A stretch of DNA of 59,514 nucleotides from Pseudobdellovibrionaceae bacterium (lineage in GTDB: Bacteria > Bdellovibrionota > Bdellovibrionia > Bdellovibrionales > Bdellovibrionaceae): the NCBI GenBank assembly GCA_021731025.1, contig JAKFYD010000033.1:1-59514 (forward strand). Direction: 5' to 3'. The notes below the pieces were generated by a model. The model saw only the letters and a list, made by a program, of their open reading frames with translations, ran no database searches and was not told the origin of the DNA. Made by a program: the position numbers and the translations under genes. This document shows, in pieces, positions 1,523 through 29,020 of this stretch (position 1 is the first letter of the stretch; every line of letters begins with the position of its first letter).

Positions 1523-3064
1523 CTACATTTCTGATACTCGACCGAGAAGGGATCGCAAAGATCCATCCACTCTGCGCTTCAAATCTTTTTTGTCTTCCGT
1601 CTCTTCTTTCTTAGTTACGGCATCCATACTCAGCCAAATTCCTAGTGCCTGACACTGGCTTCGCAAAGAGGTTCGCGCCACTCCAAGTTTTCGTGCAGTT
1701 TCCGACAGATTTTGATCGCAAGCCTTGTAGGTTTTAAGAATTAAAGTTCGAGCTTCGTGCTCATGTCTTGTTGCCATCTCAATTAACGATTCCAAAGTGC
1801 TAAAACCGTCCGAAGCCATTCCCGAAGCTTCAAGCTCGCCATATTTTTCAATATGTTCAGGAAGAATGATATGGCCTTCTACCAATACGGAAAGTCGTTT
1901 TATTAAATTCTCAAGTTCGCGTACGTTACCGGGCCACGAATACTGCCTGAGCATATCGAAAGCATCGGGATGGAACTGCTTTGCGACTTTGGCAGCATCC
2001 TGAGTGCAATATTTGTCCAGGAAGAATTCGCAAAGAACTTCAATGTCTTCCAAACGATCTTTAAGTTGAGGAAGATCAATTCTCATTTCTTTCATCCGGT
2101 AGACTAAGTCGACGAGAAATTCATCTCCATCAACCAATTCTTTTAAGTTTGGTTTCGCCGCAAAAACAAAACGGACATCGACTAGCTTTTCTGTGCTGCC
2201 GCCGACTCTTCGAACACGTTTTTCTTGAATAAACCTGAGGAGCATAGCTTGCGCTTCCGGGCCAAGATGATGAACTTCATCCAAAAATACGGTTCCGCCA
2301 TTTGCGATCTCCAGGAGGCCTGGCTTTGATTCAGCTCCGGTAAAGGCTCCTTTTTCACTACCGAACAGCTCGCTCGCAATGAGTTCTGATTTTTTGAACT
2401 GGGTGCAATCAATTGTTCTAAACTGCTTGTCATGACGTTTGGAATTCTGATGAATCGCCCTGGCAATCAGTTCTTTTCCCGTTCCAGTTTCTCCAATAAT
2501 CAGAACTGAAAGATTCGATGTCGCCGATTGAAGAACAAGTTCAGCTGCGGCTTTCATGGTAGAATTCATTGAAATAACGCCGATTTTTTTTAGAACTTCG
2601 GGCACTAAAGCTGCACGTCGCGTTCGTTGTCCTAAGAAGCTTCCAAATTTAGCTCGAAACTTTGTTAAGGCTTCTGTAATGAAGATTTGAAGCTTTTCGT
2701 GCTGACCCGAAAATTCCTTGTAGAGAAATTTATCGGCTCCATTTTTTAGCCAGAGCCTCAAGCTTTCAGGACTCGTATCTCCAGACATCATCACAATTTC
2801 AATATAGGAGTTAATTCGTTTGATTGGCTTGATAAAATCAGCGCCCAACGTAAGCTTGTCGGGAGCCTCACGAAAATGATGATCCATAAAAACCAGAAAA
2901 ACATTGAATGGATTTTCTCTTATAGAAATGAGTGCCTGGTCAGGATGTGCGTAGAACTCAACCTCAAAGGCTCGATTTTCGCCAAACACCGAATTAAGAG
3001 ACAGCTCCAACCCTTGGCGAAAGCAGCTTTCGTCATCAATAAAAATAACTCTTGGTGTCTCCAT
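1523..3064 (-). CDS. Sigma-54-dependent NtrC-family response regulator
   Basis: 513 residues. The receiver domain (about 1-130) has acidic pocket D10/D11, phospho-acceptor D61, S94 and K116. The AAA+ domain (about 165-400) has Walker A GETGTGKE at 191-198, the sigma-54-contacting GAFTGA at 239-244, Walker B TVFLDE near 258, and the WPGN/VRELEN motif. A Fis-type helix-turn-helix spans about 440-475 (LSETARKLGVARTSLRSQ). All key residues are intact, so it should activate sigma-54 promoters when phosphorylated, most simply by the adjacent kinase. It is the last gene of the operon starting at 7034. The matching site arrays upstream of this operon and the 983-16 operon are its most likely targets (inference). 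Confidence 0.95.
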   Translation of the reverse strand: METPRVIFIDDESCFRQGLELSLNSVFGENRAFEVEFYAHPDQALISIRENPFNVFLVFMDHHFREAPDKLTLGADFIKPIKRINSYIEIVMMSGDTSPESLRLWLKNGADKFLYKEFSGQHEKLQIFITEALTKFRAKFGSFLGQRTRRAALVPEVLKKIGVISMNSTMKAAAELVLQSATSNLSVLIIGETGTGKELIARAIHQNSKRHDKQFRTIDCTQFKKSELIASELFGSEKGAFTGAESKPGLLEIANGGTVFLDEVHHLGPEAQAMLLRFIQEKRVRRVGGSTEKLVDVRFVFAAKPNLKELVDGDEFLVDLVYRMKEMRIDLPQLKDRLEDIEVLCEFFLDKYCTQDAAKVAKQFHPDAFDMLRQYSWPGNVRELENLIKRLSVLVEGHIILPEHIEKYGELEASGMASDGFSTLESLIEMATRHEHEARTLILKTYKACDQNLSETARKLGVARTSLRSQCQALGIWLSMDAVTKKEETEDKKDLKRRVDGSLRSLLGRVSEM

Positions 3065-3085
3065 AAAACCCCTTTTCTAAAAAAC

Positions 3086-4480
3086 TCAGGCCTCTCTAAT
3101 AGCTAAACTTAAACGTACTTCTGATGCGTGTTTACGCGTCAAATCGGTGACTATTGGTAAAACGACTCTTACTTCAGTCCCAACACCCTCTTGAGAGGTC
3201 ATCAGAATTCGTCCATGATTCTGCTCAATTTTCTTTTTGGCCCATTGAAATCCAAGCCCCTTGCCATCGGGCTTTCCGTACGATCCGCCTTTATCCATGA
3301 TACTTTTCAGGATCGCCTCGGGAATTCCCATTCCATTGTCGATGATTGAAATCGTGCACTCTGTTTCGTTCCGCACGTAGTTGACTTCAACCTGTCCATC
3401 TTCTGAAACGGCTTGTAATGAATTGTCGATCAAATTTGAAATGACTCTTTTAAAGTCACTGATTCGCATTTCAACAAGAGTATCCTCATCCGCTAGATTT
3501 CCGCTCACGCTTACATTTGAGGTGTACTTGCAGAGCAGGGCTTTTTCCGAGATCATTTCATTCAGTGCAAGACTGACAGACATTGGGAGCTTCTGTATAC
3601 GTGAGCGTACTTCGCTAGATCCATACACTGGCGTGTGGTGACTAATAACATCGTCTGCGATGTCGCTGATCCTCTGGGCCGAGTTGTTCAGAGCACTCTT
3701 TAGTTGGGGGTCGAGTTGATTTTGAGCAGCGTGAAGGGCCATTTGAAGCCCGACAACAGGTGAGCGAATGTCATGCGCGACTTGCTTTGCAACATCAAGA
3801 GCGGCCTTTGCTTCTGCGGCCGCTTTTGAAACTTCAAACTGATGACTCAGGCTGTTTCCTAGAGATAAGAATTCGCTAATTTTAAAGGCTGGCATTTTCT
3901 GTGGATTATCACCAGGCGACTCGAGAATTTTCATTAGCTCATTCAGTTCTTTTCGGATGCGAGCAAAACCTATTGAAAGAACGAAAAATAATGCAAGAGA
4001 AAGGAAAACAAATCCAACTACATTCTTTCCGAGATTTTTCCACGTATTCTCAACTAAATCTGAATTATCAAAGATAATGGATAAGTGCCCCATTTGATTT
4101 GCCCGATCTTCAGAAAAATAGAGGTCGACGTCCATTCTATTGAGTCCCGTACTTGATCCGACTTTACTTTTGTTGCAGCTCTGAATCGTCTCCGATGCGG
4201 ATTTAATTTCGATACACGATATCTGTGAATTACGAGTCAATTCTTCTGCGCGAATTCTCGCTTCTATGAGGCTCCCTTGAATAAGAGGCTGTCTTATAAC
4301 AGCCGCAAAGGTTTCAAATGTAAGTTTCTGACTATCTAACCGAGATGCCTTATTTGTTTGATAGTCATTCCAAGCAAAAAGGGCGCTGATTAAGGTGCTC
4401 ACCAACAAGACAATGGGAACGAGCAGTCTCAAAAAATAGCGATTGATAGAGCGTGTTCTAGGATTCATGAATGGCGTCAC
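3086..4480 (-). CDS. Membrane sensor histidine kinase
   Basis: 464 residues with an N-terminal membrane helix (about 17-37), a periplasmic sensor of about 115 residues, and a second helix (about 154-172). A dimerisation domain follows with the H-box AHDIRSP (H236), then an HATPase domain with NLIDNSLQA, IIDNGMGIP and GKGLGF motifs. It starts at a GTG whose GTGA overlaps the stop of the upstream binding-protein gene, with AAGGAG five bases before it; an ATG four codons later is an alternative. It should phosphorylate the NtrC-type regulator just downstream. The periplasmic domain could contact the co-encoded solute-binding protein, as in known kinase/binding-protein pairs such as TorS/TorT (inference). 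Confidence 0.92.
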   Translation of the reverse strand: MTPFMNPRTRSINRYFLRLLVPIVLLVSTLISALFAWNDYQTNKASRLDSQKLTFETFAAVIRQPLIQGSLIEARIRAEELTRNSQISCIEIKSASETIQSCNKSKVGSSTGLNRMDVDLYFSEDRANQMGHLSIIFDNSDLVENTWKNLGKNVVGFVFLSLALFFVLSIGFARIRKELNELMKILESPGDNPQKMPAFKISEFLSLGNSLSHQFEVSKAAAEAKAALDVAKQVAHDIRSPVVGLQMALHAAQNQLDPQLKSALNNSAQRISDIADDVISHHTPVYGSSEVRSRIQKLPMSVSLALNEMISEKALLCKYTSNVSVSGNLADEDTLVEMRISDFKRVISNLIDNSLQAVSEDGQVEVNYVRNETECTISIIDNGMGIPEAILKSIMDKGGSYGKPDGKGLGFQWAKKKIEQNHGRILMTSQEGVGTEVRVVLPIVTDLTRKHASEVRLSLAIREA

Positions 4481-5925
4481 TCCAACTCCTTCACGGCGTG
4501 AAGGCGCGGAGTATAACGGTAGGTGGCTTCTTCAGAAATCATATTAGGCTTTCCGATTATATAGAACGGTATGCGCCATCCCGGGACCATAAGCTGATCC
4601 TTGCGAAGTTGCTCGTTGATCTGCTGAAACAATTCACTTCGGACGGTCCAATTTTCTTCTTGCCTAGCTCGCTTATACTTCTCGGCAAGATTGGGTCCTA
4701 TGTATGTTGCAAAATCTTTCACCAAGAATGTCGGAAGAAGAGCAATGAACCCTTCTGGATCATTGAATCCTCCAGCCCAGCCAGCGAAAATGACATCAGG
4801 CTTTTTCTCCGCGATCTTTCCCATCTCTGATGGTGATATTTTGACGATTTCAATTTGAAATCCATACGTCTTAGCCAACGCTTGAACGTCATTTGCTTTT
4901 AAGAAGTCATCAAACGTCGCCCCAATAAATGCCAATCTTAAAGGTTCGACCTTTTCAGATTTTTTTCGATGCACTTTTGGAATATGCGTAACTGCCAAAT
5001 GTCCGGCGACTCCCTTGGGAATGACACCAGTAGCTCTTTCGAGGTCGAGTTTTTTGCAACCTCTATCCAAGATCTCCTCGATCAATCCCATAGTTCGGTT
5101 TCGAGTTTCAGGCGAACTGAAGTGCGCTCCGTGAGGATGCCACCATGCCGAGGTTTGGGCGTAGCTGATTTGGTTAATGGCTTTGAGTTTTTCAAACCCC
5201 TTTACCTTTTGCATTCCGGTCTTTGTTGAAAGAGTGACGCCTGGTGCGTAGTCGGGAATATCTGTTGCTGGCACATTCAAGTCACCATCAGCAAAGAAAA
5301 CCAGTTGCCACTCTTTAATGCTAATCGAGGATGCCTGGGGATACTTCGCGTTGATCTCGAGCATCCACTTATCTCCGCGCTTCATAAGACGATACGGCCC
5401 AGAACCAACGATGGGTTCAGTGGAAGTCTTATCGAAGCTCCATCCCATAGGAACTACGCCAAGTTGATCGCGACTTAATGCTTTAAGGATGGATACATTC
5501 GGTTCTTTTAATTTGATAACCAAGACATCGGACGCCGGAACTTCAATTGTAGAAATGCTGGCTACGAAGTTACTCGACTGAGATTTTTTCGAGATCACTC
5601 TTTCGATGGTGTATTTGATGTCTTTGGATTCAAGCTTTTGTCCGTTTGAAAAAACACGATCTTTACGAATCTTAAAGCGAATCGTGAGACCATTGTCTTC
5701 AAACGTCCAACTCTCAGCAAGACCTGGCGTTACATTCCCAAGCTTGTCTGTATCAACCATAGGTTCAAGAATTTGACCTAATACGATATGTTCCGCGAAC
5801 TGATTCACCTCTGCGGGGTCACGAGGAAACGTCGGCGGCACATAACCATATTTTTTTGGTGTGGCTGCGCTAAGTGTTGATGTCATAAAAATTATCCCTC
5901 CGATAAAGGCAAACCACTTCTTCAT
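4477..5925 (-). CDS. Periplasmic solute-binding protein, peptide/nickel (SBP_bac_5) type, no transporter nearby
   Basis: 482 residues with a cleavable signal peptide (about 1-21, ending LSA|A) and no lipobox. The fold markers of family-5 binding proteins are present: an early ILEPMVDTD segment, GLAESWTF, IRKDRVFSNGQKL, and GSGPYRL near residue 175. ABC permease and ATPase genes are absent. The gene sits between an HExxH enzyme and a sensor kinase, with a TAATATG junction to the former and a GTGA overlap with the latter. This favours a role as a ligand-sensing partner of the kinase rather than in uptake. The ligand is unknown; the family binds oligopeptides, nickel or other small molecules. 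Confidence 0.88.
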   Translation of the reverse strand: MKKWFAFIGGIIFMTSTLSAATPKKYGYVPPTFPRDPAEVNQFAEHIVLGQILEPMVDTDKLGNVTPGLAESWTFEDNGLTIRFKIRKDRVFSNGQKLESKDIKYTIERVISKKSQSSNFVASISTIEVPASDVLVIKLKEPNVSILKALSRDQLGVVPMGWSFDKTSTEPIVGSGPYRLMKRGDKWMLEINAKYPQASSISIKEWQLVFFADGDLNVPATDIPDYAPGVTLSTKTGMQKVKGFEKLKAINQISYAQTSAWWHPHGAHFSSPETRNRTMGLIEEILDRGCKKLDLERATGVIPKGVAGHLAVTHIPKVHRKKSEKVEPLRLAFIGATFDDFLKANDVQALAKTYGFQIEIVKISPSEMGKIAEKKPDVIFAGWAGGFNDPEGFIALLPTFLVKDFATYIGPNLAEKYKRARQEENWTVRSELFQQINEQLRKDQLMVPGWRIPFYIIGKPNMISEEATYRYTPRLHAVKELE

Positions 5926-10505: not shown

Positions 10506-11495
10506 TTAATGCATATTTTTCAATCGATCCTCTAAGTTTTTCTGCTTTCTTTCGAACCTAGCTGTTTCGATTTTTACTTTTCTTTCATTTAAAACTTGCT
10601 GGCCTCGACCGAAGAACATGTCTGCAGGGCGTAGATAATTTATGCCCGCGTGGAGCCGCTGGTGATTGTATTCTAAATTATATTTATTTAAAATGTCCCA
10701 GGCCTCTTGATAACTTTGCGGGCTGTTTGGTCTAATCGCTTCTTGCTTCACGGTACCGTTAAGTCGTTCAATCTTTCCATTTGTTTGCGGGTGATTTCTT
10801 CTCGTAAAAACTTGTTGGATTTCTAATTTATGAAGTAATTTTTTAAATTCTAAACTAATAAACTGGCTACCATTGTCGTTGATAAGTCGTGGTTTTGCGT
10901 GCGGGTATTTCTCTTTCACACGCTGAACGAACATTTCAACACTGCCGCCCAGCATGTCTGTCATCAACTCCCAGTCCAGCATGTACCTTGAGTAACCATC
11001 CAGCATCATAATTAAAAAATAAAACACCCCGCCAAGCTTAATGTACGCAATGTCCGTGTGCCAGTGGTGATGGGGGTACTTGGGCTTATGCTGATATTCT
11101 TTTTTCGTATCACCATGGTTAACTTTGTTCCAACCAGCAAGCTTTCCGTGTTCGGCTAATATATCGTAAACTTTTGATTCAGAAAGGTGTGCGATGTTTT
11201 CATCAACCATCTGCCAACAAAACTTTCGGTAACCGATGTCTGGATATTGCTCGCGGTGCCTGAGCACAGCTTCGATTTCATGAGCTCGTAGTGAAGCTAT
11301 ATTTTCAGTGACTAATTTTTTAGATTTTGGCTCTGGAAAACTCACCCATCCATGGTAAGTCGATTTTTTGATGTCGTAGAAATTTAAAAGTATATTTAAA
11401 CTTAAGCCCGTACGCTGCTGTTGCTTTTCAATATCAGCAATGATCTCAAGGCGTAAAAGCGGATTGATATTTACAGCAGACCCGAAGCCCCAAGA
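10506..11495 (-). CDS. IS3-family transposase OrfB (DDE integrase), expressed by -1 frameshift
   Basis: The frame is open from the end of the A9 run (11496-11504) without needing its own start. It reads SWGFGSAVNINPLLRLEI onward, the usual IS3 junction region. An HTH_21-like part precedes the catalytic core, with D in WHTDIAYI, D in INDNGSQF and E in GKIERLNG. It catalyses cut-and-paste or circle-type transposition of the element. A GTG at 11345 could give a shorter free OrfB. All three catalytic acidic residues are present, so the element may be active. Confidence 0.9.
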   Translation of the reverse strand, partial: SWGFGSAVNINPLLRLEIIADIEKQQQRTGLSLNILLNFYDIKKSTYHGWVSFPEPKSKKLVTENIASLRAHEIEAVLRHREQYPDIGYRKFCWQMVDENIAHLSESKVYDILAEHGKLAGWNKVNHGDTKKEYQHKPKYPHHHWHTDIAYIKLGGVFYFLIMMLDGYSRYMLDWELMTDMLGGSVEMFVQRVKEKYPHAKPRLINDNGSQFISLEFKKLLHKLEIQQVFTRRNHPQTNGKIERLNGTVKQEAIRPNSPQSYQEAWDILNKYNLEYNHQRLHAGINYLRPADMFFGRGQQVLNERKVKIETARFERKQKNLEDRLKNMH

Positions 11496-16688: not shown

Positions 16689-16712
16689 GGGTAGGCACAA
16701 ATGTGTCTACCC
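16689..16712. terminator. Bidirectional terminator-like hairpin
   Basis: GGGTAGGCACA pairs with TGTGTCTACCC (one G-T wobble) around a two-base loop, between convergent genes ending at 16679 (+) and 16707 (-). The flanks are moderately T-rich in both directions. Confidence 0.65.
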
Positions 16713-17258
16713 TAACTCTTTAGACCAAAGCCTTACGACTTCACATTCTTCAGAAAAACTTTCGCCACTCACACTCATCACTCCGTCATTGAAAACAAGA
16801 TTCCAACGATTTTCTTTTTCGATATGTCCTTGAAGCCGTTCCAAAAATTTTGAAGGAATCGAAATGATCTGAACTTCTTCTTTCCGGAAGATTTTTTCTT
16901 TCGCCATCTCGGTCAAAAGAATTTGCGGATTTTTATAGGTAAAAATTTGCACGATGTTGGCCGCTTTAGAGGCTTTATGTATTTTTCGGTTGGAAGGATT
17001 TCCAATCTCAATCCAAAGAGAAAACCCCCCTTGAAGATTTGCGACACTTAAAGCAGGTCCTTCGGGATCGCCTAATCCCGAGGCCGAGATCTCGAGCCTT
17101 TCCTCGTAACTGAGAGCATAGGCGACTACTCGTGTGAGAAGATAATCTAAACTTTCTGAAGGATGTTGGGCCAGGCGAAAATCAAGAGTTTCATAGCAAT
17201 TCTTCTCTAGATTCGAGAGTTCAATTTTAAAGCGGTAGAGTTTTGAAGCTAATGCCAT
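16707..17258 (-). CDS. yaeQ: YaeQ-family protein
   Basis: 183 residues matching the YaeQ family along its length: MALASKLYRFKIELSNLE start, RLAQHPSESLDYLLTRVVAY, SYEERLEIS, FSLWIEIGNPS and VQIFTY. The family has a PD-(D/E)XK nuclease-like fold of unresolved physiological role. It starts 11 bases after the cheB stop and is likely the last gene of the chemosensory transcript, though a functional link is not implied. A hairpin terminator overlaps its stop. Confidence 0.88.
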   Translation of the reverse strand: MALASKLYRFKIELSNLEKNCYETLDFRLAQHPSESLDYLLTRVVAYALSYEERLEISASGLGDPEGPALSVANLQGGFSLWIEIGNPSNRKIHKASKAANIVQIFTYKNPQILLTEMAKEKIFRKEEVQIISIPSKFLERLQGHIEKENRWNLVFNDGVMSVSGESFSEECEVVRLWSKELG

Positions 17259-17269
17259 TTGATAATTTC

Positions 17270-18313
17270 TTATTTGTAAATTTGCTCAACGATCAAAGCT
17301 GAAAGTCGCTCAAGAGGGGCTTCAAAATTTGCGGTACTGCCTTCGATGATACATCTAGGCATACCGAACACGACACAAGAAGATGCTGACTCAGCTAAAA
17401 CGCGGCCACCCAATTTGCGAATGGATTTACTTCCTTCAAAGCCATCGCTTCCCATGCCCGTCATGACCAAGGCAAGCACTCCTGAACCTGCAGCTGCGGC
17501 AGCACTTTCGAAAAGCACGTCCACTGAAGGATGGTGTAAAGATTCAAGAGGTTCATGCGAAACCACGGCAAAATATTTTCCGTGATGGCTACGAATTTTA
17601 AGATGTCTTCCTCCCGCTGCAATGACAGCACGGCCAGGAATTAACTCCATTCCATCGTGAGCTTCATCCACTTGGATTGAACCAATTTTACTGAGACGAG
17701 CGGCCAAAGGAGCGGTGTAGCCCGCCGGTATGTGAAGAGCAATTGCAATTGGAACTGGTAGACCCTGCGGTAAGGATTTAAAAAGGCTGGTTAAAGCTTG
17801 AGGCCCACCCGTCGATGTTCCGATCACGACTAATTTTGTTGCTGAAACTTTCGAAAGATCAGGCAAAAATTTTTGAGCGGTTTCGTCCACCAAGAGAGAT
17901 CCCATTTTGGGCTTTGCAGTAGCCGCTGCTTTGACTTTGGCGATGAGTTCATCTGACAAATCGTAGAGGCGGTCCGTAGGTAGCAAAGTTGGCTTTGTGA
18001 CAAGTTCAATGGCGCCATTTTGCAAAGCTTCGATAGCGAGATCAGAATCCGCAGCCGAGGAACTAACAACGATAACCCGAGGGGCATTCTCTTTTGAAAG
18101 AGTTCGCAAAAATCCAATACCGTCCAAATCGGGCATCATCAAATCAAGAGTAACAACATCGGGACGAACTTCAGGAATTTTTTCGAGAGCCTCGAGTCCA
18201 TCTCGAGCAATGCCGACGACATCAATTTCAGGATCGCGTGATAAAATATCGCGGATCACTTTTCTAGCGAAGGCAGAGTCATCGACAACTAAGACTCGAA
18301 TACGTGGATTCAC
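17270..18313 (-). CDS. cheB: Chemotaxis response regulator and glutamate methylesterase CheB
   Basis: 347 residues: a receiver (about 1-105) with phospho-acceptor D57 and KP motif, a linker, and a methylesterase domain with catalytic S167 (GTSTGG), H194 (ALHIPAGYT) and D290 (MTGMGSDG). It removes methyl groups from, and deamidates, receptor glutamates when phosphorylated by CheA. The GTG start overlaps the cheR stop (GTGA). All catalytic residues are intact. Confidence 0.97.
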   Translation of the reverse strand: MNPRIRVLVVDDSAFARKVIRDILSRDPEIDVVGIARDGLEALEKIPEVRPDVVTLDLMMPDLDGIGFLRTLSKENAPRVIVVSSSAADSDLAIEALQNGAIELVTKPTLLPTDRLYDLSDELIAKVKAAATAKPKMGSLLVDETAQKFLPDLSKVSATKLVVIGTSTGGPQALTSLFKSLPQGLPVPIAIALHIPAGYTAPLAARLSKIGSIQVDEAHDGMELIPGRAVIAAGGRHLKIRSHHGKYFAVVSHEPLESLHHPSVDVLFESAAAAAGSGVLALVMTGMGSDGFEGSKSIRKLGGRVLAESASSCVVFGMPRCIIEGSTANFEAPLERLSALIVEQIYK

Positions 18314-19140
18314 GAGTTGCGAACCTTTCTATAGATAAAAGCGCCACCATGTTCTTCACCAACAAAATGTCCCGAGTAACGCAACAAAGATTCTGAAACT
18401 CCAACCAATAAAATTCCATCGTTGATGAGCGATCGCGAAAGCCGATCAAGCACTGCACGAACAACCTGATCCGAGAAATAGATCAGCACATTTCGACAAA
18501 GAATAGCATCGAAGGAACCCAACTGCATGAGCTCAATCTCTGTCATTAGATTCTTTTTTTCCCATTTTATTTTGCTGCACAAATCAGGTTTAACCTGAAA
18601 ATGACCATCACTGTTCGCAGTAAGATATTTTTCAAAAAGATGCGGGGCTGGTATGTTCCTTACCGCGCGCTTGCCGAACTTTCCACTTTGCGCTTTTGCT
18701 AGGACTCGAGAGCTAATATCAGTAGCAACGATCTCAACTTTATCCAGTAGATTCCGGTCATCTAACAACATCGCTAGGGAAAGTGGTTCCTCTCCGGTAG
18801 CGCAAGCCGCGGACCAAATTCTTGGACGCCGACCACTGGCGCACCAAGGTTCAATAAAGTTATCCACGAGGGATTGGATCGCTGGCCATTCTCGGAAAAA
18901 GTAAGTTTCGTTAACGACGAGAGTTTCTGTCAACTCCGTCAACTCTTTCTCTCCGTTCAGGTCGTATCTAAGAAAATAGTAATAATCGAGAAGAGAAGCG
19001 AAACCCACTTCTTGCGCCCGAGATGATAACTTATCTTGGAGAAGCTCCTTATCTCGATGTGAATAAGTAATACCTACTTTTTCTTCAATATAGGAACTGA
19101 GGATAGAGAATACAGGCGGAGAAAGCTCGAGGCTGTTCAT
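18310..19140 (-). CDS. cheR: Chemoreceptor glutamate methyltransferase CheR
   Basis: 276 residues from the ATG at 19140 with TGAGGC nine bases upstream; a longer TTG start would run into the HEAT gene. The N-terminal helical domain (about 1-75) precedes a SAM-binding domain with IWSAACATGEEPLSLA, VATDISSRVLAKA and DAILCRNVLIYF motifs typical of CheR. It methylates receptor glutamates, here most likely on the soluble MCP of the same operon. No TPR extension is present. Confidence 0.96.
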   Translation of the reverse strand: MNSLELSPPVFSILSSYIEEKVGITYSHRDKELLQDKLSSRAQEVGFASLLDYYYFLRYDLNGEKELTELTETLVVNETYFFREWPAIQSLVDNFIEPWCASGRRPRIWSAACATGEEPLSLAMLLDDRNLLDKVEIVATDISSRVLAKAQSGKFGKRAVRNIPAPHLFEKYLTANSDGHFQVKPDLCSKIKWEKKNLMTEIELMQLGSFDAILCRNVLIYFSDQVVRAVLDRLSRSLINDGILLVGVSESLLRYSGHFVGEEHGGAFIYRKVRNS

Positions 19141-19151
19141 GGGATCAAGCC

Positions 19152-21503
19152 TCACTGTCTTAATAACAGACTGCAAATCTGTCTAACTTCTTGATCGGGA
19201 TCATTCTCTTCCGCTTCTTGGAGTGCGGAGACCATTTCGGAATCTCGACGTGCAGCGAGTGCCTGTGCCGCTGCTTTTCGCGCAGCCACATTGTTCAAGC
19301 GAAATGCAGAAAGTAGAGCTGTGCGTGCCTCAGGACGTTGAAGCCGAGATAAAATCGAAATAAGAATGGCCGCCAATTCATGATCTGCAGAGGCAAGCGC
19401 GATCAAAAGACCGGCCACTCGACCTTCGCTGGGAATCAAGAGCGCCGCTTTCGCTTTATTCTTCAATGCGGGAATAGCTAAAAGCTCAACTAAGACTTCC
19501 GTAGCTTCTTGTTCCCGTCTTCCGCCAAGAAATGCAATTGCACTCGCACTGACTTGTTCGTCTCTGTCCGAAGCTGCAGAGCTCAGAGCACCGACCACAC
19601 GACTTGATGGGAATTGGGCGACTGCCGAAAGTGCCATCAATTTTGTCGCAGGATCAGATGAACTGACTGCCGATAAAAGTATTGGTAAATCTTCAATACG
19701 CTTCGCGAGTCCAAGACCGACCAGTGCTGCTCGCCGAATTTCAAGATCCTCGCGCTCGGCAGCAGATCTCAGTGCTTGATGGGCGACAGGCGAATCGAAA
19801 TGAGAGAGCGCTTCGATAGCAGCTACCCGCACTTGACCAGCAACATCTTCGAGCAATTTTACAATCTCTGATGATGCGGGAATATATTTGAGTCGTCCTA
19901 GTGATTGACATGCATAATACCGAGTCCAAGAATCTGTGTCATTCAAACCATTCATCAATAGTGAATAAACTTTTTCATTTCCACTTTGCAGTTGTCCAAG
20001 TGCTCGCATAGATAGAGCCCGAGTTCTTGCAACTTCAGCTTGAGCAGATGCAAAAAGAGCTTCCAGAGCTTCTTTGTTATCGAGAAATGGTAACCCGTAA
20101 AGAGCTGCTTCTTGAACCCGCGGATCAATATCTGACATGCCTTTGAGTAATGGTTGCAATGCCGACGAATCTCCAAAATAGGAAAGAATTCGAAGTGCTG
20201 ATCGACGAACTATGGGATTCACAGACTCAGCCGCCTTGACGGCGAGCTCGCGAGTTTCGCGTGAACCAAAGGCTTGAATAGCCGCCGTCGCCGAATGAAC
20301 GACGCGAAGATTATCATCATCCAGAAGAGGAAATAATTGTTTAACGACATTAGGATTACCTAGTCGTGCTAAAGTGTCACAAGCAAGTGCTTTGACTTCA
20401 GGATCATTATCGCGCAAACAAGTTGCAACCTCGAAGGCTGCAGATGAACGACCAACTAAAGGTAATAAAATTTTCCGTCGTTCACTGGAACCATTGTGAA
20501 TCGCCGAGACAAGTGAAGCATCAGTATCTCGACCAATTTTTTTCAAAGCTGTTGCTGCATTCGAAGCCACTAATCCCTCGCACTGAAGTGCGGCCGTCAA
20601 AGCAGGAACGGCTTCCGCATCACCAATGACTCCAAGAAGATGACAAATTGAGGTTGCTTCGCCAGAATCAGATTGCGGCAAGACTTGTCCTAGTCGTCGG
20701 ACCATTTCATTTTTCACTTGATCGCGCAGAAGATTTTCTATGACAAAAACATCGCCTCCCGATTTTTCTTGATACTGATCTCGTAACTCCCAAAGTGAAA
20801 TCGCTGCGACTCGCACGACCGCATCGACGGGAGACCGTAACAACTCAATCAGTGGCGCTACTGCAGATTTTTCTCCTGATCGGCCTAAGGCGCGTGAAGC
20901 CTCGGGCAAAAAGGTGGGATTAGAAAGCAATTTTACAAGAGGAGCTACCGAGCGTGGATCAGCACTGCGCCCAAGAACGTCAATTGCCGGAAACACTCTG
21001 AAAAAATTTTTACCGCTGACAATATCTATTAAAGCTTCAACAGCTGCACGCCCACCGATTTTACCAAGCGCTTCGATGGCTCCAACGGCAACGTTGTCAT
21101 TATCATGATTTGTCAATTTAACTAAAGTAGGTACCGCGGTCGAAGAACGCCGTCGGCCAAGAATTTGTGCAACGTCTGCAACAATAGCAGGATCTGAATC
21201 TTCAATCAGTAAAACAATATATTTTTCAACGGGTCCACTCGAGGACGAAAGCGCATCCACGACAGCGGCAATCCTGGCTTCATTATCACGTTTATTACGG
21301 AGCAAACCAATCAATGGCTCGATCGCTGAATCACCTGAACGAGCAAGGGAGTCTATAACTGAGCGCCGTACAATCCAACTTGGATCGATAAGCATATCGA
21401 GGAGTTCAGAGATATGGTTAAATCCTTTTTCACTAATTCGTTGAACATGAGCAAATCGTGTCTGCTCGGCATCTGTCAGTGAAAAGGTCTCCGATAAAAT
21501 CAT
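19152..21503 (-). CDS. HEAT-repeat protein embedded in the chemosensory operon
   Basis: 783 residues made almost entirely of HEAT/PBS-lyase-type repeats of about 31 residues, for example [38 protein letters not shown] and [14 protein letters not shown]. It has no signal peptide or membrane segment and no catalytic motif. The ATG overlaps the MCP stop (ATGA), and the gene lies between the receptor and cheR. It is probably a scaffold or adaptor for the soluble receptor array, or a link to an output other than flagella (inference from position). Confidence 0.9.
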
Positions 21504-24037
21504 GCCTGCCCCTGAATATCTTTATGAGGAATTACACGAGGAGATCGTAGGTTCGACTTAATCAATTTCGTATTTTCAATTTGGCTGATCATTGCTTTTT
21601 TCACGCTGGAAATTTGACTAGTTAGTTTGTTCGCATCAGCCGCGATACTTGCCGAAGTCTTCGCATGGGAGGTAATCCCCGCCGAAAGTTCTCTGGCTTG
21701 CTTACGAATGTCTGAAATTGTCGACACGATTTCAAAAGCCGAATTGCTTTGTCCTGCCATTTCGGTATTAATTCGCTGCATGGCCGACGTTTGCTTGACC
21801 ACTGTTGCTGTCAGTGAAGCCGCAGCTTCTGCTTGTTCACTCACGGCTCGAGCATTTTGACGAGCTATACGCCGAATTTCTTCACCTTCACGGGCAAGTT
21901 CCGCAGCGGCTTTTGCTTGCTCTTCTGTAGCTCGCGTAACTTCTTGCGAAAGCCGAGCAACTTCACGGGTTCCCGTCTCAATCTCTTTCGCAGCTCGAGC
22001 CTGTTCTGCAACCGCTCGCGCTGTTTGTGCCGCTTCTTTTCTAGCTTCATCCATGGCGCGGGCAACTTCAGCAGCACCGCTCGACTGCTCAGTCAAACCG
22101 GCAACAGTCCGCCGAGTTGAATCCAACACTTCCTTTGTCGAACCAGAAAGGTCCATCAATATTTTAGTCTGTTCACCCATCGAGTTGCTTGTTTCTTGCG
22201 TGATAGTCCTCATTCGAAGGGCTGCTTTTGCAAGCTGATCTGTGGCGGCTGCTTGTTCACTCACACCTCGAAGCACCGTGCTTGCGTTCGTGGCAAGTTG
22301 AGTATGATTCTTAACCAGTGCTCTTAAAGCATTCGCCTGCTCAATTGTTGCATCTCTTGTTTGGCGCGCCATTGTTCTCATCTCTGTAGCGCTTCGACTT
22401 AAATCTTGAGTCGCGGTGACTTGCTCGGCAGCTGCACGCGCAACCAGGCGGCCTTCTTCAGCAATTTTATGAGTGGCTTGAGTCACAGTTTTTACGGCGC
22501 TCGCTTGTTCAGCACTGGCGCGTTCAATCTCGCCGACAGCACCAGAAACATTTTCCACTCCTCCCAAAATTGCAGAAAGTGCACGCTCAGCTTCAATGGC
22601 ATGACGTCCACCTTCTTCGGCAGTTTTGAGTCCTTTCACGCTAGTGGTTACAGCTTCTCTGGAAGTTGATTGTAATCCCTTAATAATTTTTGCGATATCT
22701 CCACTTGCAGTCGTCGCACGATCTGCCAGGGCACGAATTTCTTCAGCAACAACGGCAAAACCACGACCATGATCACCTGCACGTGCAGCCTCAATACTTG
22801 CATTTAGGGAAAGTAAATTTGTTCGATCAGCGATGAGATTAATTGTCTGAACAATATCGCCAATTTCTTCTGCACGAGCGCCCATCTCTTTAATCACAGA
22901 TGCAGATTCGGCCATGGCATCACGAATTAAATTCAGCCCTTCAATGGATTTCGCAACCGTCTTTCCACCATCACGAGCTTCTGATGTAACACGCTCTGTT
23001 GTCTTACGAGCAACTTCAACAAGACTTACAATTTTATTAGTGGAACTTTCAAGTTGTGCAGCTGCAGTAGCAGTACCGGAAGATGCATTCGCAATTTTAT
23101 CGGCGCTTTGAGCAACAGACTGCCCGGAACGATTCACCTGCTCAATTGCAGTTGCATTAACTTCGACAACCACAGCATTCTTTTCCGCTGTCGCAGCAAC
23201 TTCTTCAACTGAAGCAGCAACTTCTGTTACTGTAGAGGCGGCGCTAGCGACAGCAGTTTCCAGCGCTCTTGTCTGTTCATTCATGGCTCTTGCCGAGCGA
23301 GACATTTCTTCGGCACTGGCCGAAGTTTGCTCAACAGCTGCAGCCATTTCGGTGGCATCATTAGCTACAACACTGAGCCCAGCCGAAACTTGAGTTATTG
23401 TCGCCGCCATCGATGTAACTTGTTGTCCTACAACACCAGCATCTTTTGCTAACCGGGTAATCCCCTTGGACATTTGTTCAATCGTTGCAGCAACCTCTTG
23501 AATAGTGGCAGCGTTCGATTCACCACTTTTTAGAACTTCAGTGACACTGGCTGAACTTTCAGTAGCTGCAGATGTGAGTTGTTGGCTTGCAGCTGCAAGG
23601 TCACTGGCATTAACACTGACACCTCGAATTGACCGCGAAAGTTCTTCAATTGTTGCCGCAACTTTTTCGGTTGAACCTGCTAGACCTTCTGTGTCCCGAC
23701 GAACACCAGCTATAGATGCTGTTACTTCCTGAAGACCAGATGATGCTCCCTCAAGACCCCGCAAAGTTTCGGTTGTTGTCTCGGCAACTTCTTTTTGTGA
23801 TCGTGCTAAGCCTTGCAATGAAGCCGCTGTTTGTTCGATTCCAGCAGCGACGATCTCGACAGCACTGCGCATCTGTTCTCCGGCTGCAGCGGTCTCGCTT
23901 CCTGATGCGACAATTCTTTGTGTCGCTTCTTCAAGGGCCCGAGTGGTCAGCGTGGATTCCCCCAGCGAATTCGCAATTTCTTCCGCCAATGTGACGGCGG
24001 TAATTACACCTTGTGTTCCATTATTATTTTTAGCCAT
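21500..24037 (-). CDS. Soluble methyl-accepting chemotaxis protein without sensor or membrane segments
   Basis: 845 residues, nearly all heptad coiled coil rich in Ala, Thr, Ser and Glu. No transmembrane helix and no recognisable ligand domain are seen. The signalling tip is present near residues 410-440 ([29 protein letters not shown]), binding CheA and CheW. Long arms on both sides are made of repeated (A/S)EQ-type segments ([24 protein letters not shown]). There is no C-terminal CheR-tethering pentapeptide. It resembles cytoplasmic receptors such as Myxococcus FrzCD. A strong AAGGAG site precedes the ATG. The input may come through other proteins. Confidence 0.93.
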
Positions 24038-24464
24038 GGGAAATCTCCTTACCTATTACTTTTTCTGAATCTAACAACATGATTATACGATTTTTAAGTT
24101 GGGCAACGGACTTGATATATCCAGCCGATTGCACAGCAACAACTCCCGGGGGAGTTTTAAATTGCTCTGCTGAAATATTTTGAACCTCGCGCGCACTGTC
24201 GACAAGAATTCCAACAAGCCTTTCACCAAAGATCATCACCACAACTCTTGAATCCAGTGTTGGCTTCAAGGACTCAAGTCCGAAACGCACACGAAGATCA
24301 AGTACTGGGATGATTTGACCTCGGACTTGAATAAGTCCCGCGACATAAGTTGGCGCTCCCGGCACAGGAGTAGCTCCCGAATAGGCTTCCATTTGAAAAA
24401 CATTATCAGCAGGAACTGCGTATTCGGAATCACCAACTTTACAAATGACGTAAAGAGAACTCAT
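24030..24464 (-). CDS. cheW: Chemotaxis coupling protein CheW
   Basis: 144 residues forming a single CheW domain: [40 protein letters not shown] and VLDLRVRFG. It couples the receptor to CheA. The ATG overlaps the cheA stop, and its own end overlaps the start of the MCP gene by eight bases, indicating tight co-translation. Confidence 0.95.
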
Positions 24465-26500
24465 AGATGCACCTCAGCTGTTGACGCATATTCTGCGCCT
24501 AAACTTGCTAAATCTAACACTAACGTTGGATGCCCATCCCCAAGATCGGTAGCACCGTTCATCCCTTTTGTGCGAATCAAACTGTCATCAAGGGGGCGAA
24601 TGACGACTTCTTGCTGACCCAGCATTCGATCAATACCAAAAGCCACTGCACCATTGAGCTGATTCACCACAATGGCCCGCGATGGTATTGTTTGCTCGGG
24701 TTGATTCTTTAAAACTGATTCAAGAACAAGAAAAGGAATTGTTTCCCCACGACGACTCAACAAACGGGGTTGAGGACCGTGGCCAGTGATCGAAGGTGAT
24801 AAGGATAAACGAGTTGGGTCCACTTCAAGGATTTCATCAATCATTGCAACAGGAGCAACAAAGACCTGACCGCCCGAAATAAAACTCATCACATCAATGA
24901 TTGTTATGCTCACTGGAACACGCAAAATGAAAACGGTTCCCTTTCCTTCCTGTGTTGAAAGCGAAAGGCTACCACCGAGCATTTCTAAAGTTTTCTTAAC
25001 AATGTCCATTCCCATACCACGACCACTTGTGAGAGAAACATCCTCACGAGTCGAAAGGCCCGGAGTGCAGATTTGCTTAAGAAGTTCTTCATTCTTATTG
25101 GCCACGGGCTGACCCGATTTTCGCGCGACAGCTTCACGGTCAATTCCGCGTCCGTCATCCTTAATCGTAATGGTCAAGGCCGTGCCTGATGAGTCTTCAC
25201 AATGAACAGTGATAACACCGGTTTCATCTTTGCCCGAATTTTTTCGCTCAGTTTTTGATTCAATGGCGTGATCAACTGAATTACGAATGATGTGAATGAT
25301 TGCAGGGAAAATTTTGTCAGCAACAGCCTTGTCAACTTCGGCTGAGCCGGCTTGAATAAATACGTCAATGGACTTGCCAAGATCTTTCGTGAGGCCACGA
25401 ACAACTAAAGGTAAACGTTGCAGCAGTTCAGCAAGAGAAACCATGCGAGCTTGAGTAACAGCTGTTCTTAGTCGTTTAAGCTGCCGGCCATTTTCTGAAA
25501 CGATCGCGTTTAATTCCCGCGTATCAATTCCTTTGGCTGACATTTTCTCTGTTATCTTTGTGAGTTTCGAACGTGTTACAATAAGTTCAGACAAGCGCTC
25601 CAACACTTCATCAAGTTTTCGAATATTAACCCGAACTGAAGCACTTTCGCTTTCTGTGGAAGACGTTTGATCTTCAAAATCATCTTCTTCCAATATTGAA
25701 AGCAAAGCTTTTTCCTCGTCAGAAGCCACTGGCTCCTTAACTTCCACTTCATTGATCGCATTTCCTGAAACCCCTAGAACAGTTGCAATATCTTCAAGAT
25801 TTAACTCTGTAAGTATTAAAAGATAAAATGCAATGCCCGTCGGCGCTCTGACAGCGGAATGAGGAGCAACCTTGATTAACTCGGCAATTTTATGAATTCG
25901 CTCACGAATAGTCGTAATATTCAAACCAACTGCCATATTTTCTGGAGAAGGTTCAAAATCCACAAGAATTAATTTTCGATGAGCAGCAAGACCTTGCAAC
26001 ACTTGCTCACGATCTCCCACGGTTAACGAAGAAAGGATTTCTTTTGGAAGCTGAAGATCCTGTCCTGCCGAAGGTTTTGTCTTGGGCAGATCGGAACTTT
26101 GAAGATGAATAAGTTCTTGGATTAATCGTGAAGATATTTTTTGTATTCCGGAAACTCCAACTTTAGGAATTGATTTGACCCGTTCTTCGATAACTTGTGT
26201 TCCTTTGACTAACAGATCTAATGCAACCTCTGATAATTGACCGCCAGCCCGATCTGCAGTTCGCAAGAGACCTTCCAATTCGTGAGAGATATCAACGATG
26301 GGGCCTGCTCCCACCATTGAGGCCAAGCCTTTAATGGTATGGAACGATCGGAAGAGCTCACGCACAGCTCGGGGCTCTAAACGACCAGCTCGTAGAGCTT
26401 CAGAAACTAAAACAAGGTTATGATTGACTGAATGAAGATGCTCGTCGGCTTCCAGAATAAATCCCGCAACAAATTCCTGCAGATTTACTTCGGAGGCCAT
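24461..26500 (-). CDS. cheA: Chemotaxis histidine kinase CheA
   Basis: 679 residues from the ATG at 26500, which follows the cheY stop. The Hpt domain has H54 in RSFHTIKGLASM. A variable middle region (about 120-285) shows no clear CheY-binding P2. A dimerisation helix pair (about 290-350), an HATPase domain with IIRNSVDHAIE, IKDDGRGID and GRGMGMDIV, and a C-terminal CheW-like regulatory domain follow. It autophosphorylates and passes phosphate to CheY and CheB of this operon. Confidence 0.96.
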   Translation of the reverse strand: MASEVNLQEFVAGFILEADEHLHSVNHNLVLVSEALRAGRLEPRAVRELFRSFHTIKGLASMVGAGPIVDISHELEGLLRTADRAGGQLSEVALDLLVKGTQVIEERVKSIPKVGVSGIQKISSRLIQELIHLQSSDLPKTKPSAGQDLQLPKEILSSLTVGDREQVLQGLAAHRKLILVDFEPSPENMAVGLNITTIRERIHKIAELIKVAPHSAVRAPTGIAFYLLILTELNLEDIATVLGVSGNAINEVEVKEPVASDEEKALLSILEEDDFEDQTSSTESESASVRVNIRKLDEVLERLSELIVTRSKLTKITEKMSAKGIDTRELNAIVSENGRQLKRLRTAVTQARMVSLAELLQRLPLVVRGLTKDLGKSIDVFIQAGSAEVDKAVADKIFPAIIHIIRNSVDHAIESKTERKNSGKDETGVITVHCEDSSGTALTITIKDDGRGIDREAVARKSGQPVANKNEELLKQICTPGLSTREDVSLTSGRGMGMDIVKKTLEMLGGSLSLSTQEGKGTVFILRVPVSITIIDVMSFISGGQVFVAPVAMIDEILEVDPTRLSLSPSITGHGPQPRLLSRRGETIPFLVLESVLKNQPEQTIPSRAIVVNQLNGAVAFGIDRMLGQQEVVIRPLDDSLIRTKGMNGATDLGDGHPTLVLDLASLGAEYASTAEVHL

Positions 26501-26502
26501 AA

Positions 26503-26883
26503 TCAAGATCCCGCTACGGGCGTCAGGACTCCTGAGACTTCAGATTGAATTGTTTCCGGAGAAAAAGGTTTCGTTAAGAAACGGGTGGCACCAGCCTGAA
26601 GCGCTTGATCACGCGAGGAATCATCGCCTCTTGTGGTTACAACAATAATCGGAATACTTTTAAGTCGATCTTGTGAACGAACAAATTGAACAACTTCAAT
26701 GCCACCGATGTCGGGCATGTTTAAGTCTAACAAAAGCAGATCATAAGGACGCAACGAGAGTTGTTCTATAGCTTCAAGTCCACTATTAGCTTGAGTGAAC
26801 GACAACTCATCTTGACCACGAAGACAAGCTATCAACATTTCACGCATTACCTTGCTGTCATCAACGACAAGTATGTCAGCCAT
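26503..26883 (-). CDS. cheY: CheY-like response regulator, first gene of the chemosensory operon
   Basis: 126 residues from the ATG at 26883 with GGAGG upstream. It is a receiver with ILVVDDS, phospho-acceptor D53 (LLLLDLNMPD), Thr in VVTTRG and Lys in FLTKPF. It is the likely CheA phosphate acceptor that produces the output of this pathway. Whether that is a flagellar motor or another target cannot be told; no flagellar genes are in the window. The operon promoter should lie between 26884 and 26992, shared with the divergent hybrid kinase. Confidence 0.92.
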   Translation of the reverse strand: MADILVVDDSKVMREMLIACLRGQDELSFTQANSGLEAIEQLSLRPYDLLLLDLNMPDIGGIEVVQFVRSQDRLKSIPIIVVTTRGDDSSRDQALQAGATRFLTKPFSPETIQSEVSGVLTPVAGS

Positions 26884-26992
26884 ACGATAGCCTCCAGACA
26901 ATGACTAAACTTAGACGAATTTCACTTTTCAAAAAGTTGGAAAAGCAGATAGGAGACCTATCACCGATGCTGATGCGTGTCTACAAAGCATT

Positions 26993-29020
26993 ATGTCGCA
27001 CCTGGCTTTGCTGCAATACGCGCCTAGGAAAGATGCATTAACTGTGGCACAACTTAGTCTGATGTTAAACCAACAAGGTCATGGAACAATTTGGATAGTT
27101 GACGACAGCACGACCGACGCTGATCGAGTAGCAGCTACATTAAGGCCCCAGTATACTGTAAGAATTTTTCACGATGGGCCAGCCGCTTTAGAACAATTGA
27201 TGTCATCCCCGCCTCCCGATCTTTTACTTCTTGATTGGATCATGCCAGGAATGTCGGGCATCGAAATTTGCACTTATGTACGCTCCTCGCGGTCTCCCAT
27301 TTCGCAAATACCAATCATCCTTCTTACTGCTCAACATGGTCGTGAGGAGATTGATGAAGCATTTAAATGCGGAGCAAATGATTACATAGTTAAGCCCTTT
27401 GCCCACGAAGAACTCAGAGCTCGAGTGAGAAATTTAACTGGCTCTAAACGTCATTTAGAACGAGCGCAAGGGCTCGTTGTCGACTTGCAACGAAGTGAGG
27501 AACGTCTTCTTATGGCGACCAGTTCTGCTGGAATTGGTATTTGGGAGTGGGACATTCGCTCAGGGATCGTTGCCTCAACAGATATACATCGAAGAATCTT
27601 TGAATTGCCTGCAGCTGGACAACTTACTTTTAAAGATATCCTTGAAAAAGTTCTTCCCGAAGATCGAGTTACTCTCCAACAAAGCCTGACGACCGCCATC
27701 GAGAACAACTCTGATTATTCATCAGAATTTCGAATCCAAAAATCAGACGGATTAATTTCCTGGATCTACGGGCACGGTCGTGCGGTTTGCGATGAAGATG
27801 GCAAGCCACTCAGAATGGTCGGAGTCCATGCTGATGTCTCCTCTCAGAAAAAGATTGCAGAGGAACTTAAACGATCAAAGGAAGAAGCAGAACGAGCGAA
27901 CCAAATGAAGTCCGCTTTTCTTGCAAATATGTCGCACGAAATTAGGACTCCCCTTGGCGCGATGTTGGGATTTGCTCATTTGATGCAGGATCCATCAGTA
28001 ACAAAAATGGAACTTTCAAATTATCTTGAAGTGCTAACCCGAAACGGAGAACAACTTTCCGTCATCATCAATGACATTCTGGACTTGTCTAAAGTTGAAG
28101 CAGGGCTCTTAGCTTATGAACATCATGAATTTGATCCCGCCGAAATCTGTAATGATGTCATTTCACTTTTTCAGTCTAAAGCAAAAGAAAAAGGCCTCAC
28201 TCTGGAATACATCAGTGATCCGTCGACTCCTGCGAAAGTCATTACTGACCCGACTCGTCTTCGACAAATCACTATGAATCTTGTGAGCAACTCACTTAAA
28301 TTCACTCGCACAGGTGGAATTAAAATAAGAACTTCTGGCGTGAGCGATAAAGACGGAAAAAATTATCTCACAGTTGAAGTTGAAGATACGGGGATAGGAA
28401 TCCCGACCGAACATGCTGAACGAATTTTTGATATGTTCTTTCAAGGTGATGATTCAATGACACGAAGGTTTGGCGGCACGGGAATTGGGCTTGCCCTCTC
28501 TCAACAACTGACTCGCGAATTGGGTGGCGATTTAAAACTTATTCGAACTAATTCTGAAGGCAGCCTATTTCAAGCTTCAGTACGGAATCAGTCAACAAGA
28601 TCTCTGCGCACTGAAGCTCGGCCTAAAACTAAAACAAGTTCTGCGGCTGTTTCTCTCACTGATGTTCGGGTTTTAGTCGTTGATGATTCACCCGATAATC
28701 AAAATTTATTATTTGCTTACCTCACAAAGTATGGAGCCCAGGTGGAAATCGCAGGCAACGGAATTGAAGCTTATCAAAAAGCACTTTCTAATCCTTACGA
28801 TATTATTCTCATGGATCTTCAGATGCCAATAATGGACGGCTATACAGCGACGAGAAAACTCAGAAAAGAAGGTTATAAAAAACCAATCATTGCTCTCACG
28901 GCTCATGCAATGTCGGAAGTGAGTGCTCAGTGCTTGGAAGTTGGATGTAATGGGTATTTGCCTAAACCTATTAACCCTAATGAACTTCTAAAAACTATTT
29001 CTGCCCACTCGAATATTTAA
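26993..29020 (+). CDS. Hybrid sensor kinase: receiver-PAS-HisKA-HATPase-receiver
   Basis: 675 residues, no membrane segment. The N-terminal receiver (about 33-150, D81 in LLLLDWIMPG) is followed by a PAS domain (about 165-285), a HisKA domain with H315 (NMSHEIRTPLG), an HATPase domain (NLVSNSLKFT, VEDTGIGIP, FGGTGIGLALS), and a C-terminal receiver (VLVVDDSPDN, IILMDLQMP, YLPKPI). It is transcribed divergently from cheY with 109 bases between. The N-terminal receiver could accept phosphate from CheA and link the two systems (inference). Confidence 0.93.
   Translation: MSHLALLQYAPRKDALTVAQLSLMLNQQGHGTIWIVDDSTTDADRVAATLRPQYTVRIFHDGPAALEQLMSSPPPDLLLLDWIMPGMSGIEICTYVRSSRSPISQIPIILLTAQHGREEIDEAFKCGANDYIVKPFAHEELRARVRNLTGSKRHLERAQGLVVDLQRSEERLLMATSSAGIGIWEWDIRSGIVASTDIHRRIFELPAAGQLTFKDILEKVLPEDRVTLQQSLTTAIENNSDYSSEFRIQKSDGLISWIYGHGRAVCDEDGKPLRMVGVHADVSSQKKIAEELKRSKEEAERANQMKSAFLANMSHEIRTPLGAMLGFAHLMQDPSVTKMELSNYLEVLTRNGEQLSVIINDILDLSKVEAGLLAYEHHEFDPAEICNDVISLFQSKAKEKGLTLEYISDPSTPAKVITDPTRLRQITMNLVSNSLKFTRTGGIKIRTSGVSDKDGKNYLTVEVEDTGIGIPTEHAERIFDMFFQGDDSMTRRFGGTGIGLALSQQLTRELGGDLKLIRTNSEGSLFQASVRNQSTRSLRTEARPKTKTSSAAVSLTDVRVLVVDDSPDNQNLLFAYLTKYGAQVEIAGNGIEAYQKALSNPYDIILMDLQMPIMDGYTATRKLRKEGYKKPIIALTAHAMSEVSAQCLEVGCNGYLPKPINPNELLKTISAHSNI

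Follow-up and report, generated by a model that had tools for sequence, protein, structure and literature searches.

Most descriptions of chemosensory systems present them as devices that connect a receptor to a motor. The closest described relative of the system treated here, Che7 of Myxococcus xanthus, has been linked to a HEAT-repeat protein and to the coupling of aggregation and sporulation (PMC9040617), and a review citing Darnell et al. 2014 names a HEAT protein, Cpc7, that interacts with CheY7 and regulates development (PMC11514114). The published table of M. xanthus chemosensory genes lists cheY7, cheA7, cheW7, cheR7 and cheB7 with products of 125, 683, 148, 273 and 348 amino acids (aa), and an mcp7 product of 821 aa that has neither a transmembrane segment nor a HAMP domain and carries its methyl-accepting chemotaxis protein (MCP) domain at residues 317-534 (PMC3945109); gene 6961, which falls into the gap between mcp7 and cheR7 in that table, we infer to be cpc7. 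According to the same source Mcp7 is cytoplasmic, forms one or two mobile subpolar clusters and shows a specific two-hybrid interaction with CheW7 (PMC3945109), and another paper describes a single cluster at a random position in the cell (PMC6952110). Here, we report an operon of seven genes (positions 17270-26883, minus strand, in the order cheY-cheA-cheW-MCP-HEAT-cheR-cheB, Table 1) on a contig of 59,514 nucleotides from a Pseudobdellovibrionaceae bacterium (JAKFYD010000033.1, assembly GCA_021731025.1), the whole of which is called the window below. We consider it probable that this operon encodes a Che7-type pathway, in which a soluble receptor array would drive CheA and CheY, and phosphorylated CheY (CheY-P) would act on the solenoid formed by the HEAT protein.

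The genes are as tightly packed as the first-pass annotation of the window had claimed (overlaps of 4-8 nt, gaps of 2-11 nt, clear Pfam matches for the products): the cheA ATG follows the cheY stop after 2 nt, cheA/cheW, MCP/HEAT and cheR/cheB overlap by 4 nt each, cheW and MCP overlap by 8 nt, and 11 nt separate HEAT from the cheR ATG. Its proposed start at 16707, however, has to be moved to 17270, because the span takes in yaeQ (16707-17258, PF07152 3.5e-43), a gene without a match in 45 stretches from related loci and thus an unrelated neighbour outside the operon. The 783-residue HEAT protein between receptor and cheR is real, and so is the lack of a ligand or membrane domain in the MCP as far as Pfam goes, since only MCPsignal exceeds its cut-off there; the absence of a membrane segment is predicted from unbroken heptads and from the published table entry for the M. 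xanthus homologue. Likewise in agreement with that annotation, no CheZ, CheD or flagellar domain was found among the operon proteins and 20 further open reading frames (ORFs) of the window (up to position 48229, including few of those below 200 aa). The Pfam scan of the CheA product gave no P2 match.

Gene order and similar protein sizes, both shared with M. xanthus che7, designate the window operon as a Che7-type system. Its receptor is of the soluble type of ~820-850 aa whose signalling tip lies close to the midpoint, as in the published Mcp7. The same gene order is found in locus L132 (genome G450), where the CheY, CheW and CheR frames fit the published M. xanthus lengths and those of CheA, MCP and CheB depend on the chosen start. 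Homology to Cpc7 was judged via the HEAT proteins of one Myxococcaceae family and not from the named Cpc7 sequence itself: the window protein aligns over nearly its full length, at 45-49% identity, with a HEAT protein in 43 of 96 genomes of this family, and with one lying in pieces in four more.

The HEAT gene is a constant companion of the receptor gene in such operons. With the window HEAT protein as query against genome contigs, 17 pattern matches and no confirmed relative were obtained; a plasmid match at 30% identity led to Gemmatirosa, followed by a CheY-based query that is independent of HEAT. As CheY and not HEAT served as query, operons devoid of HEAT could have turned up. Among the 32 loci of this search, 23 (L063-L085) belong to the family, three of which (L081, L084 and L085) end before the HEAT position, and all 20 that are complete to that point have HEAT between MCP and cheR. 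These originate from Myxococcota or deltaproteobacterial metagenome-assembled genomes (MAGs) (9 loci), cyanobacteria (8 loci, i.e., Laspinema, Oscillatoria, Arthrospira and Planktothrix), one Gemmatimonadetes MAG, one Thioploca MAG and one unassigned bacterium. The stretches reach cheB in 14 cases (two of them covering it in part), and the remaining six end earlier. HEAT also follows MCP and precedes cheR in L044, plasmid 2 (a megaplasmid) of Gemmatirosa kalamazoonensis. The other nine loci (L086-L094) carry other response regulators, and one of them, L092, is another myxobacterial che cluster without a HEAT match. Within the Myxococcaceae family, HEAT was detected in 47 of the 96 genomes (E 1e-60) and cheB in 48 (E 1e-75), the other 48 having neither at these thresholds, and in all 47 testable genomes both lie on one contig at a distance of 842-864 bp, which is the size of cheR. 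Genome G420 was not counted as testable because its cheB is located on a 4083-bp contig ending in the cheR region. An MCP gene adjoins HEAT in all 12 family members that were fetched, two of which have HEAT read in two pieces, and in L070.

Some of these loci show irregular gene structures. HEAT is in two pieces in four of the 47 genomes, on separate contigs in G434 and G447 and adjacent in different frames in G438 (L134) and G441 (L143), where the gene may be frameshifted or split, or the assembly at fault. The Thioploca MAG (L072, 12270-12805) has cheW in two overlapping frames and the other six operon genes in one frame each, and the Planktothrix loci L082 (10374-12319) and L083 (10367-12587) have cheA in two overlapping frames. 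In L073 (10207-12786), cheA and cheW matches fall within one open frame of 860 aa, a possible CheA-CheW fusion. MCP-like proteins are also encoded by 17 contigs catalogued as viral in IMG/VR (L045-L061), possibly host sequence at prophage borders.

The receptor itself is predicted to be a single long hairpin. Its tip motif places the turn at residue 422 of 845, with arms of 421 and 423 residues; hydropathy follows a period of 3.5 residues, the phase staying at 0.44-1.05 residues in all 29 segments of 49 residues, turn included (the turn and the C-terminal end show the weakest heptad phase), and residues 1-805 contain no proline at all. Arm lengths co-vary across 35 family members (r 0.92, an approximate value reflecting mostly a difference between subfamilies, with the N-terminal arm taken from the first Met and L085 cut at its C-terminal end). 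From these features we infer ~55-60 paired heptads, the coil of the C-terminal arm ending near residue 805. The described MCP classes, 24H to 64H, comprise 12-32 paired heptads and measure 126-336 Å at ~10.5 Å per pair, only a few rare receptors being longer (PMC6628036); by its continuous register the window MCP lies outside this range, and at the same rise per pair its rod would reach about 575-630 Å. All M. xanthus MCPs besides DifA and McpK, and thus Mcp7 as well, have been assigned to class 40H (PMC3945109), a statement that conflicts with ~55-60 heptads, so that the 40H count must refer to the core only, if both are right.

Along the C-terminal arm Glu-Gln pairs recur with a 28-residue step; counted from the turn, they span +88 to +312 and form nine rungs in the window MCP. 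Nine rungs in one phase were reached by none of 2000 heptad-preserving shuffles (shuffle mean 3.2); the N-terminal arm has no significant 28-residue phasing, its level being reached by 521 of 2000 shuffles. At the first seven rungs Gln is invariant in all 21 aligned receptors, the window one included; in a control set of 38 other MCPs, only 10 of which have a C-terminal arm of 200 residues or more and in which class indels shift the register, it occurs at +89 in two, at +117 in two and at +145 in none. Given that the ladder Gln occupies a core heptad position, we read the ladder as a series of structural polar layers. At methylation sites an exchange of Glu for Gln and vice versa is expected, and such exchanges are seen on the N-terminal arm of the aligned receptors. 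The alternative that the C-terminal ladder is a row of methylation sites is disfavoured by this invariant second residue and by its core position.

The window HEAT protein is confidently modelled as a continuous alpha-solenoid (AlphaFold2, mean pLDDT 90.5, 50 helices listed). Its best Foldseek matches in the PDB are mostly adaptor-type solenoids (CAND1, karyopherins, SF3B1 and the PP2A A-subunit), but TM-scores by query length are low (0.23-0.47 among the 50 matches listed) and the likeness hence speaks for the fold class only. Residues invariant in all 21 aligned HEAT proteins include, among others, W43, N137-V138, F167-F168, F171, D522, W526, R528 and Y529. A role as phycobilin lyase was considered and rejected, as the best NCBIfam matches are far under their cut-offs (90.3 vs 330, 84.2 vs 300 and 57.5 vs 220 bits). 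The two myxobacterial-type HEAT proteins that were scanned, those of the window and L070, consist of repeats without a PAS match. Among the eight others scanned, PAS_4 exceeds the Pfam cut-off N-terminal of the repeats in L044 (29.9 bits), L074 (26.5 bits) and L078 (29.1 bits), PAS matches are sub-threshold in L073, L075 and L082, and the scan gave none in L072 and L076, where the chosen start of L076 may clip the N-terminus. In some Gemmatimonadota and cyanobacteria, it is thus the HEAT protein, and not the receptor, that bears a sensor fold.

The Che7-type pathway that we favour would operate as follows. Receptor dimers, i.e., rods whose heptad register and arm symmetry are visible and whose length would be ~55-60 paired heptads, would cluster in the cytoplasm with CheA and CheW, by analogy with Mcp7-GFP of M. 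xanthus. The cluster would set the activity of CheA, which would phosphorylate CheY, and CheY-P would bind the HEAT solenoid in place of a flagellar motor, in keeping with the CheY7-Cpc7 pair reported in M. xanthus, whereupon HEAT would pass the signal on to a cellular target. CheR and CheB would reset the receptor via the Glu/Gln pairs of its N-terminal arm, candidates being those at residues 152, 187, 243, 278 and 299. The input would be intracellular, and wherever HEAT bears a PAS domain part of it probably enters through HEAT; the hybrid kinase encoded divergently from the operon (26993-29020) may cross-feed the pathway.

Several observations weigh against this proposal. The system of this organism is known from its genes alone, and PAS on the HEAT proteins of other lineages would point to input rather than output. 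Darnell et al. 2014 are said to have identified the alpha4-beta5-alpha5 face of CheY as the Cpc7 contact; in our alignment, with segment limits set by analogy with E. coli CheY, conservation is 0.75 in alpha4, 0.71 in beta5 and 0.54 in alpha5 vs 0.70-0.81 in the other segments, so that this face is no more conserved than the rest of CheY and sequence by itself does not support it as the contact surface. The AlphaFold model of the MCP, although nearly all helix, is too weak for use (pLDDT 67.7, pTM 0.28); the two longest breaks of low confidence in it (206-243 and 594-638) are roughly symmetrical about the turn. Finally, the CheY-HEAT interaction in M. xanthus is taken from one sentence of a review (PMC11514114).

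An ordinary motility pathway to the flagellar motor, with HEAT as an incidental passenger, appears highly improbable. The genome of the window does have flagellins, but another che cluster with MCP, CheW, CheR, CheA and CheB is present on contig C14, no homologous locus that extends to the HEAT position lacks HEAT, nor does any of the 47 testable family members, and the operon is also present in cyanobacteria, of which we know of none with flagella. It is more conceivable, though still unlikely, that HEAT serves to scaffold or position a cytoplasmic array, as its size, its adaptor-type fold, its fixed adjacency to the receptor gene and the mobile subpolar clusters of Mcp7 (PMC3945109) might suggest; against this, no report of a HEAT-MCP contact was found in the literature consulted, where the M. 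xanthus partner is given as CheY7 (PMC11514114). A better, yet doubtful, candidate is HEAT as an input module that senses a cytoplasmic signal (via PAS, if present) and presses on the receptor rod, CheY acting elsewhere. The receptor is a signalling hairpin throughout with no sensor domain of its own, PAS_4 passes the cut-off in the three HEAT proteins named above and stays below it in three more, and the HEAT gene adjoins the MCP gene with a 4-nt overlap in the window, one that is possible in eight of nine myxobacterial loci. This reading is opposed by the HEAT proteins of the window, L070, L072 and L076 (subject to the start chosen for the last), which have no PAS match, and, again, by CheY7 as the published partner (PMC11514114).

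The first-pass annotation had seen here an alternative-function pathway with the HEAT protein as sensor adaptor or array scaffold. That the pathway has an alternative function and includes HEAT is supported by the conserved HEAT-MCP adjacency, a check it had itself proposed and which holds in the 20 complete loci, in L044 and in the 12 further Myxococcaceae loci. Concerning the role of HEAT, the sensor adaptor gains indirect support from PAS on some gemmatimonadotal and cyanobacterial HEAT proteins, whereas the scaffold is not supported by anything found here, and the published partner, CheY7, lies on the output side; the Che7 type, yaeQ as an outside gene and the divergent REC-kinase as a possible partner were missing from that account. 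Going further, we tentatively postulate that Che7-like systems could form a separate, widely scattered class, defined by a soluble hairpin of ~60 nm with buried Gln layers every four heptads and by an obligatory alpha-solenoid that would be the target of CheY-P and, in some lineages, a PAS sensor too. If this is true, one HEAT protein would be the meeting point of input and output, in place of a receptor ligand domain and a motor.

How did such an operon reach this host? Searches of 367 other genomes of its phylum (at most two candidates scored per genome) yielded no full-length HEAT homologue; other matches at E 1e-10 or better there amount to four partial ones of 42-60 bits, as opposed to 612-691 bits for single-piece myxobacterial homologues, and the best other MCP match in 58 near genomes scored 77 bits vs 1577 for the protein itself (16 candidates scored per genome). 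A tree of the seven concatenated proteins (32 rows) placed the window within the Myxococcota half (split supported at 100 by the Shimodaira-Hasegawa-like approximate likelihood ratio test, SH-aLRT), beside L063 and L070 at 88-89%; nesting inside Myxococcota is not established, as Myxococcota as one clade was not rejected (approximately unbiased, AU, test p 0.128, quick tree). The lack of full-length HEAT homologues elsewhere in the phylum suggests a transfer from a myxobacterial lineage, which would be the simplest reading, loss of the operon elsewhere in the phylum being a possible alternative. GC content is 46.4% in the operon, 41-42% in the flanks and 67-76% in the measured myxobacterial loci, and operon GC at third codon positions (33-42%) is inside the range of other window genes (32-47%). 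By this composition and by mean identities of 41-69% to Myxococcota homologues, the transfer would not be a recent one. Weak signs that the contig is native to its host are its matching GC and its yaeQ, for which 18 of 58 other near genomes have relatives at 44-57% identity. The gene content is suggestive of Bdellovibrionota as the phylum. A search for an empty site around yaeQ in six relatives matched only yaeQ well among the flanking genes, the rest being kinase or regulator matches at 36% identity or less.

Divergent from the operon lies a hybrid kinase gene that is a possible, only partly conserved partner. Of 21 Myxococcota loci, 12 have a relative of its first REC domain (94-126 bits, compared with 75 bits or less against any CheY) either upstream or downstream of the che7-like operon, and the flanks fetched for the remaining nine, all Myxococcaceae, contain no close one. 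The region between the divergent units gave no sigma-70-like match, and promoter and terminator scans returned counts near the shuffled mean. Elsewhere in the host genome there are seven flagellin-domain matches and, besides the cluster on C14, a CheA gene on C24, a CheW gene on C11 and two tandem MCP genes on C5; in a flagellated genome with CheA, CheW and MCP genes on other contigs, the window operon represents an additional system. The window also contains a transposase-like gene with an integrase core (rve, 10506-11345, ~6 kb from the operon) and a tight cluster of a sigma-54 activator (weak REC match), a histidine kinase and a family 5 solute-binding protein (1523-5925).

Table 1 Features of the Che7-type operon and its divergent neighbour in the window
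Feature	Position	Strand	Description
cheY	26503..26883	-	126 aa, single-domain response regulator; Pfam Response_reg 6.6e-28
cheA	24461..26500	-	~679 aa; Pfam Hpt, H-kinase_dim, HATPase_c, CheW
cheW	24030..24464	-	144 aa; Pfam CheW 4.1e-33
MCP gene	21500..24037	-	845 aa, soluble, Mcp7 type; MCPsignal 2.1e-39 at residues 348-526
C-terminal arm of MCP with Glu-Gln pairs	21833..22510	-	nine pairs, 28-residue step, residues 510/511 to 734/735
HEAT-repeat gene	19152..21503	-	783 aa, Cpc7-like; HEAT_2 4.5e-84
cheR	18310..19140	-	276 aa, methyltransferase; Pfam CheR 3.9e-46
cheB	17270..18313	-	347 aa, GTG start; REC and methylesterase 1.9e-53
Intergenic region, 109 bp	26884..26992	.	between divergent units; presumed promoter region of both
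REC-PAS-HisKA-HATPase-REC hybrid kinase	26993..29020	+	divergent from cheY; domains by Pfam

The link between HEAT and Che7 is already known in one species, and what is new is its spread over several phyla. In the literature covered, mostly titles and abstract openings with few subscription papers, we found no description of HEAT-containing che operons beyond Myxococcus, of PAS-HEAT fusions or of the glutamine ladder. No operon seen whole lacks HEAT, and these operons stem from several phyla, some of their hosts having no flagella; that CheY has a partner other than a motor may therefore be a general trait rather than one peculiar to M. xanthus. For arrays, a receptor of double length with a glutamine ladder of fixed 28-residue step makes a structural prediction that can be tested, and PAS-HEAT fusions offer a direct route to asking where the signal enters. 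In our opinion, there are good grounds to regard the Che7 kind as wider, and structurally odder, than the single example studied so far would indicate.

Among known systems, a soluble receptor and a cytoplasmic cluster as proposed here are shared with Frz of M. xanthus (receptor FrzCD) and with the cytoplasmic arrays of Vibrio and Rhodobacter, for none of which do we know of a HEAT partner. FrzCD differs further in its size, given as 417 aa in the published table (PMC3945109). CpcE, CpcF and NblB, the best NCBIfam matches of the window HEAT protein, resemble it in repeat type only. The Che7-like operons of Gemmatimonadota, Oscillatoriales-type cyanobacteria and the Thioploca MAG agree in having HEAT after MCP and in the same receptor layout and Gln ladder, and differ in their shorter receptor arms (~330-370 residues) and, in several, by PAS-HEAT fusions; L044 (13169-14142), L073 and L075 additionally have a second CheY and a CheX/CheC-like gene (so named by reading of the sequence) after cheB, neither of which is there in the window. 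Closest of all is M. xanthus Che7 (MXAN_6965-6959), which the window operon matches in gene order, protein sizes, a soluble MCP with a central signalling domain and, with 6961 as the inferred cpc7, a HEAT gene between MCP and cheR. It stands apart from the Che7-type sets of 19 Myxococcota by mean identities that range from 41.4% (CheA) to 68.5% (CheY, the highest of the seven proteins), from the nine Myxococcaceae che7-like loci by its divergent REC-kinase, which has no close relative in their fetched flanks, and from M. xanthus by its host, which is flagellated and whose phylum yielded no further full-length HEAT homologue in the genomes searched.

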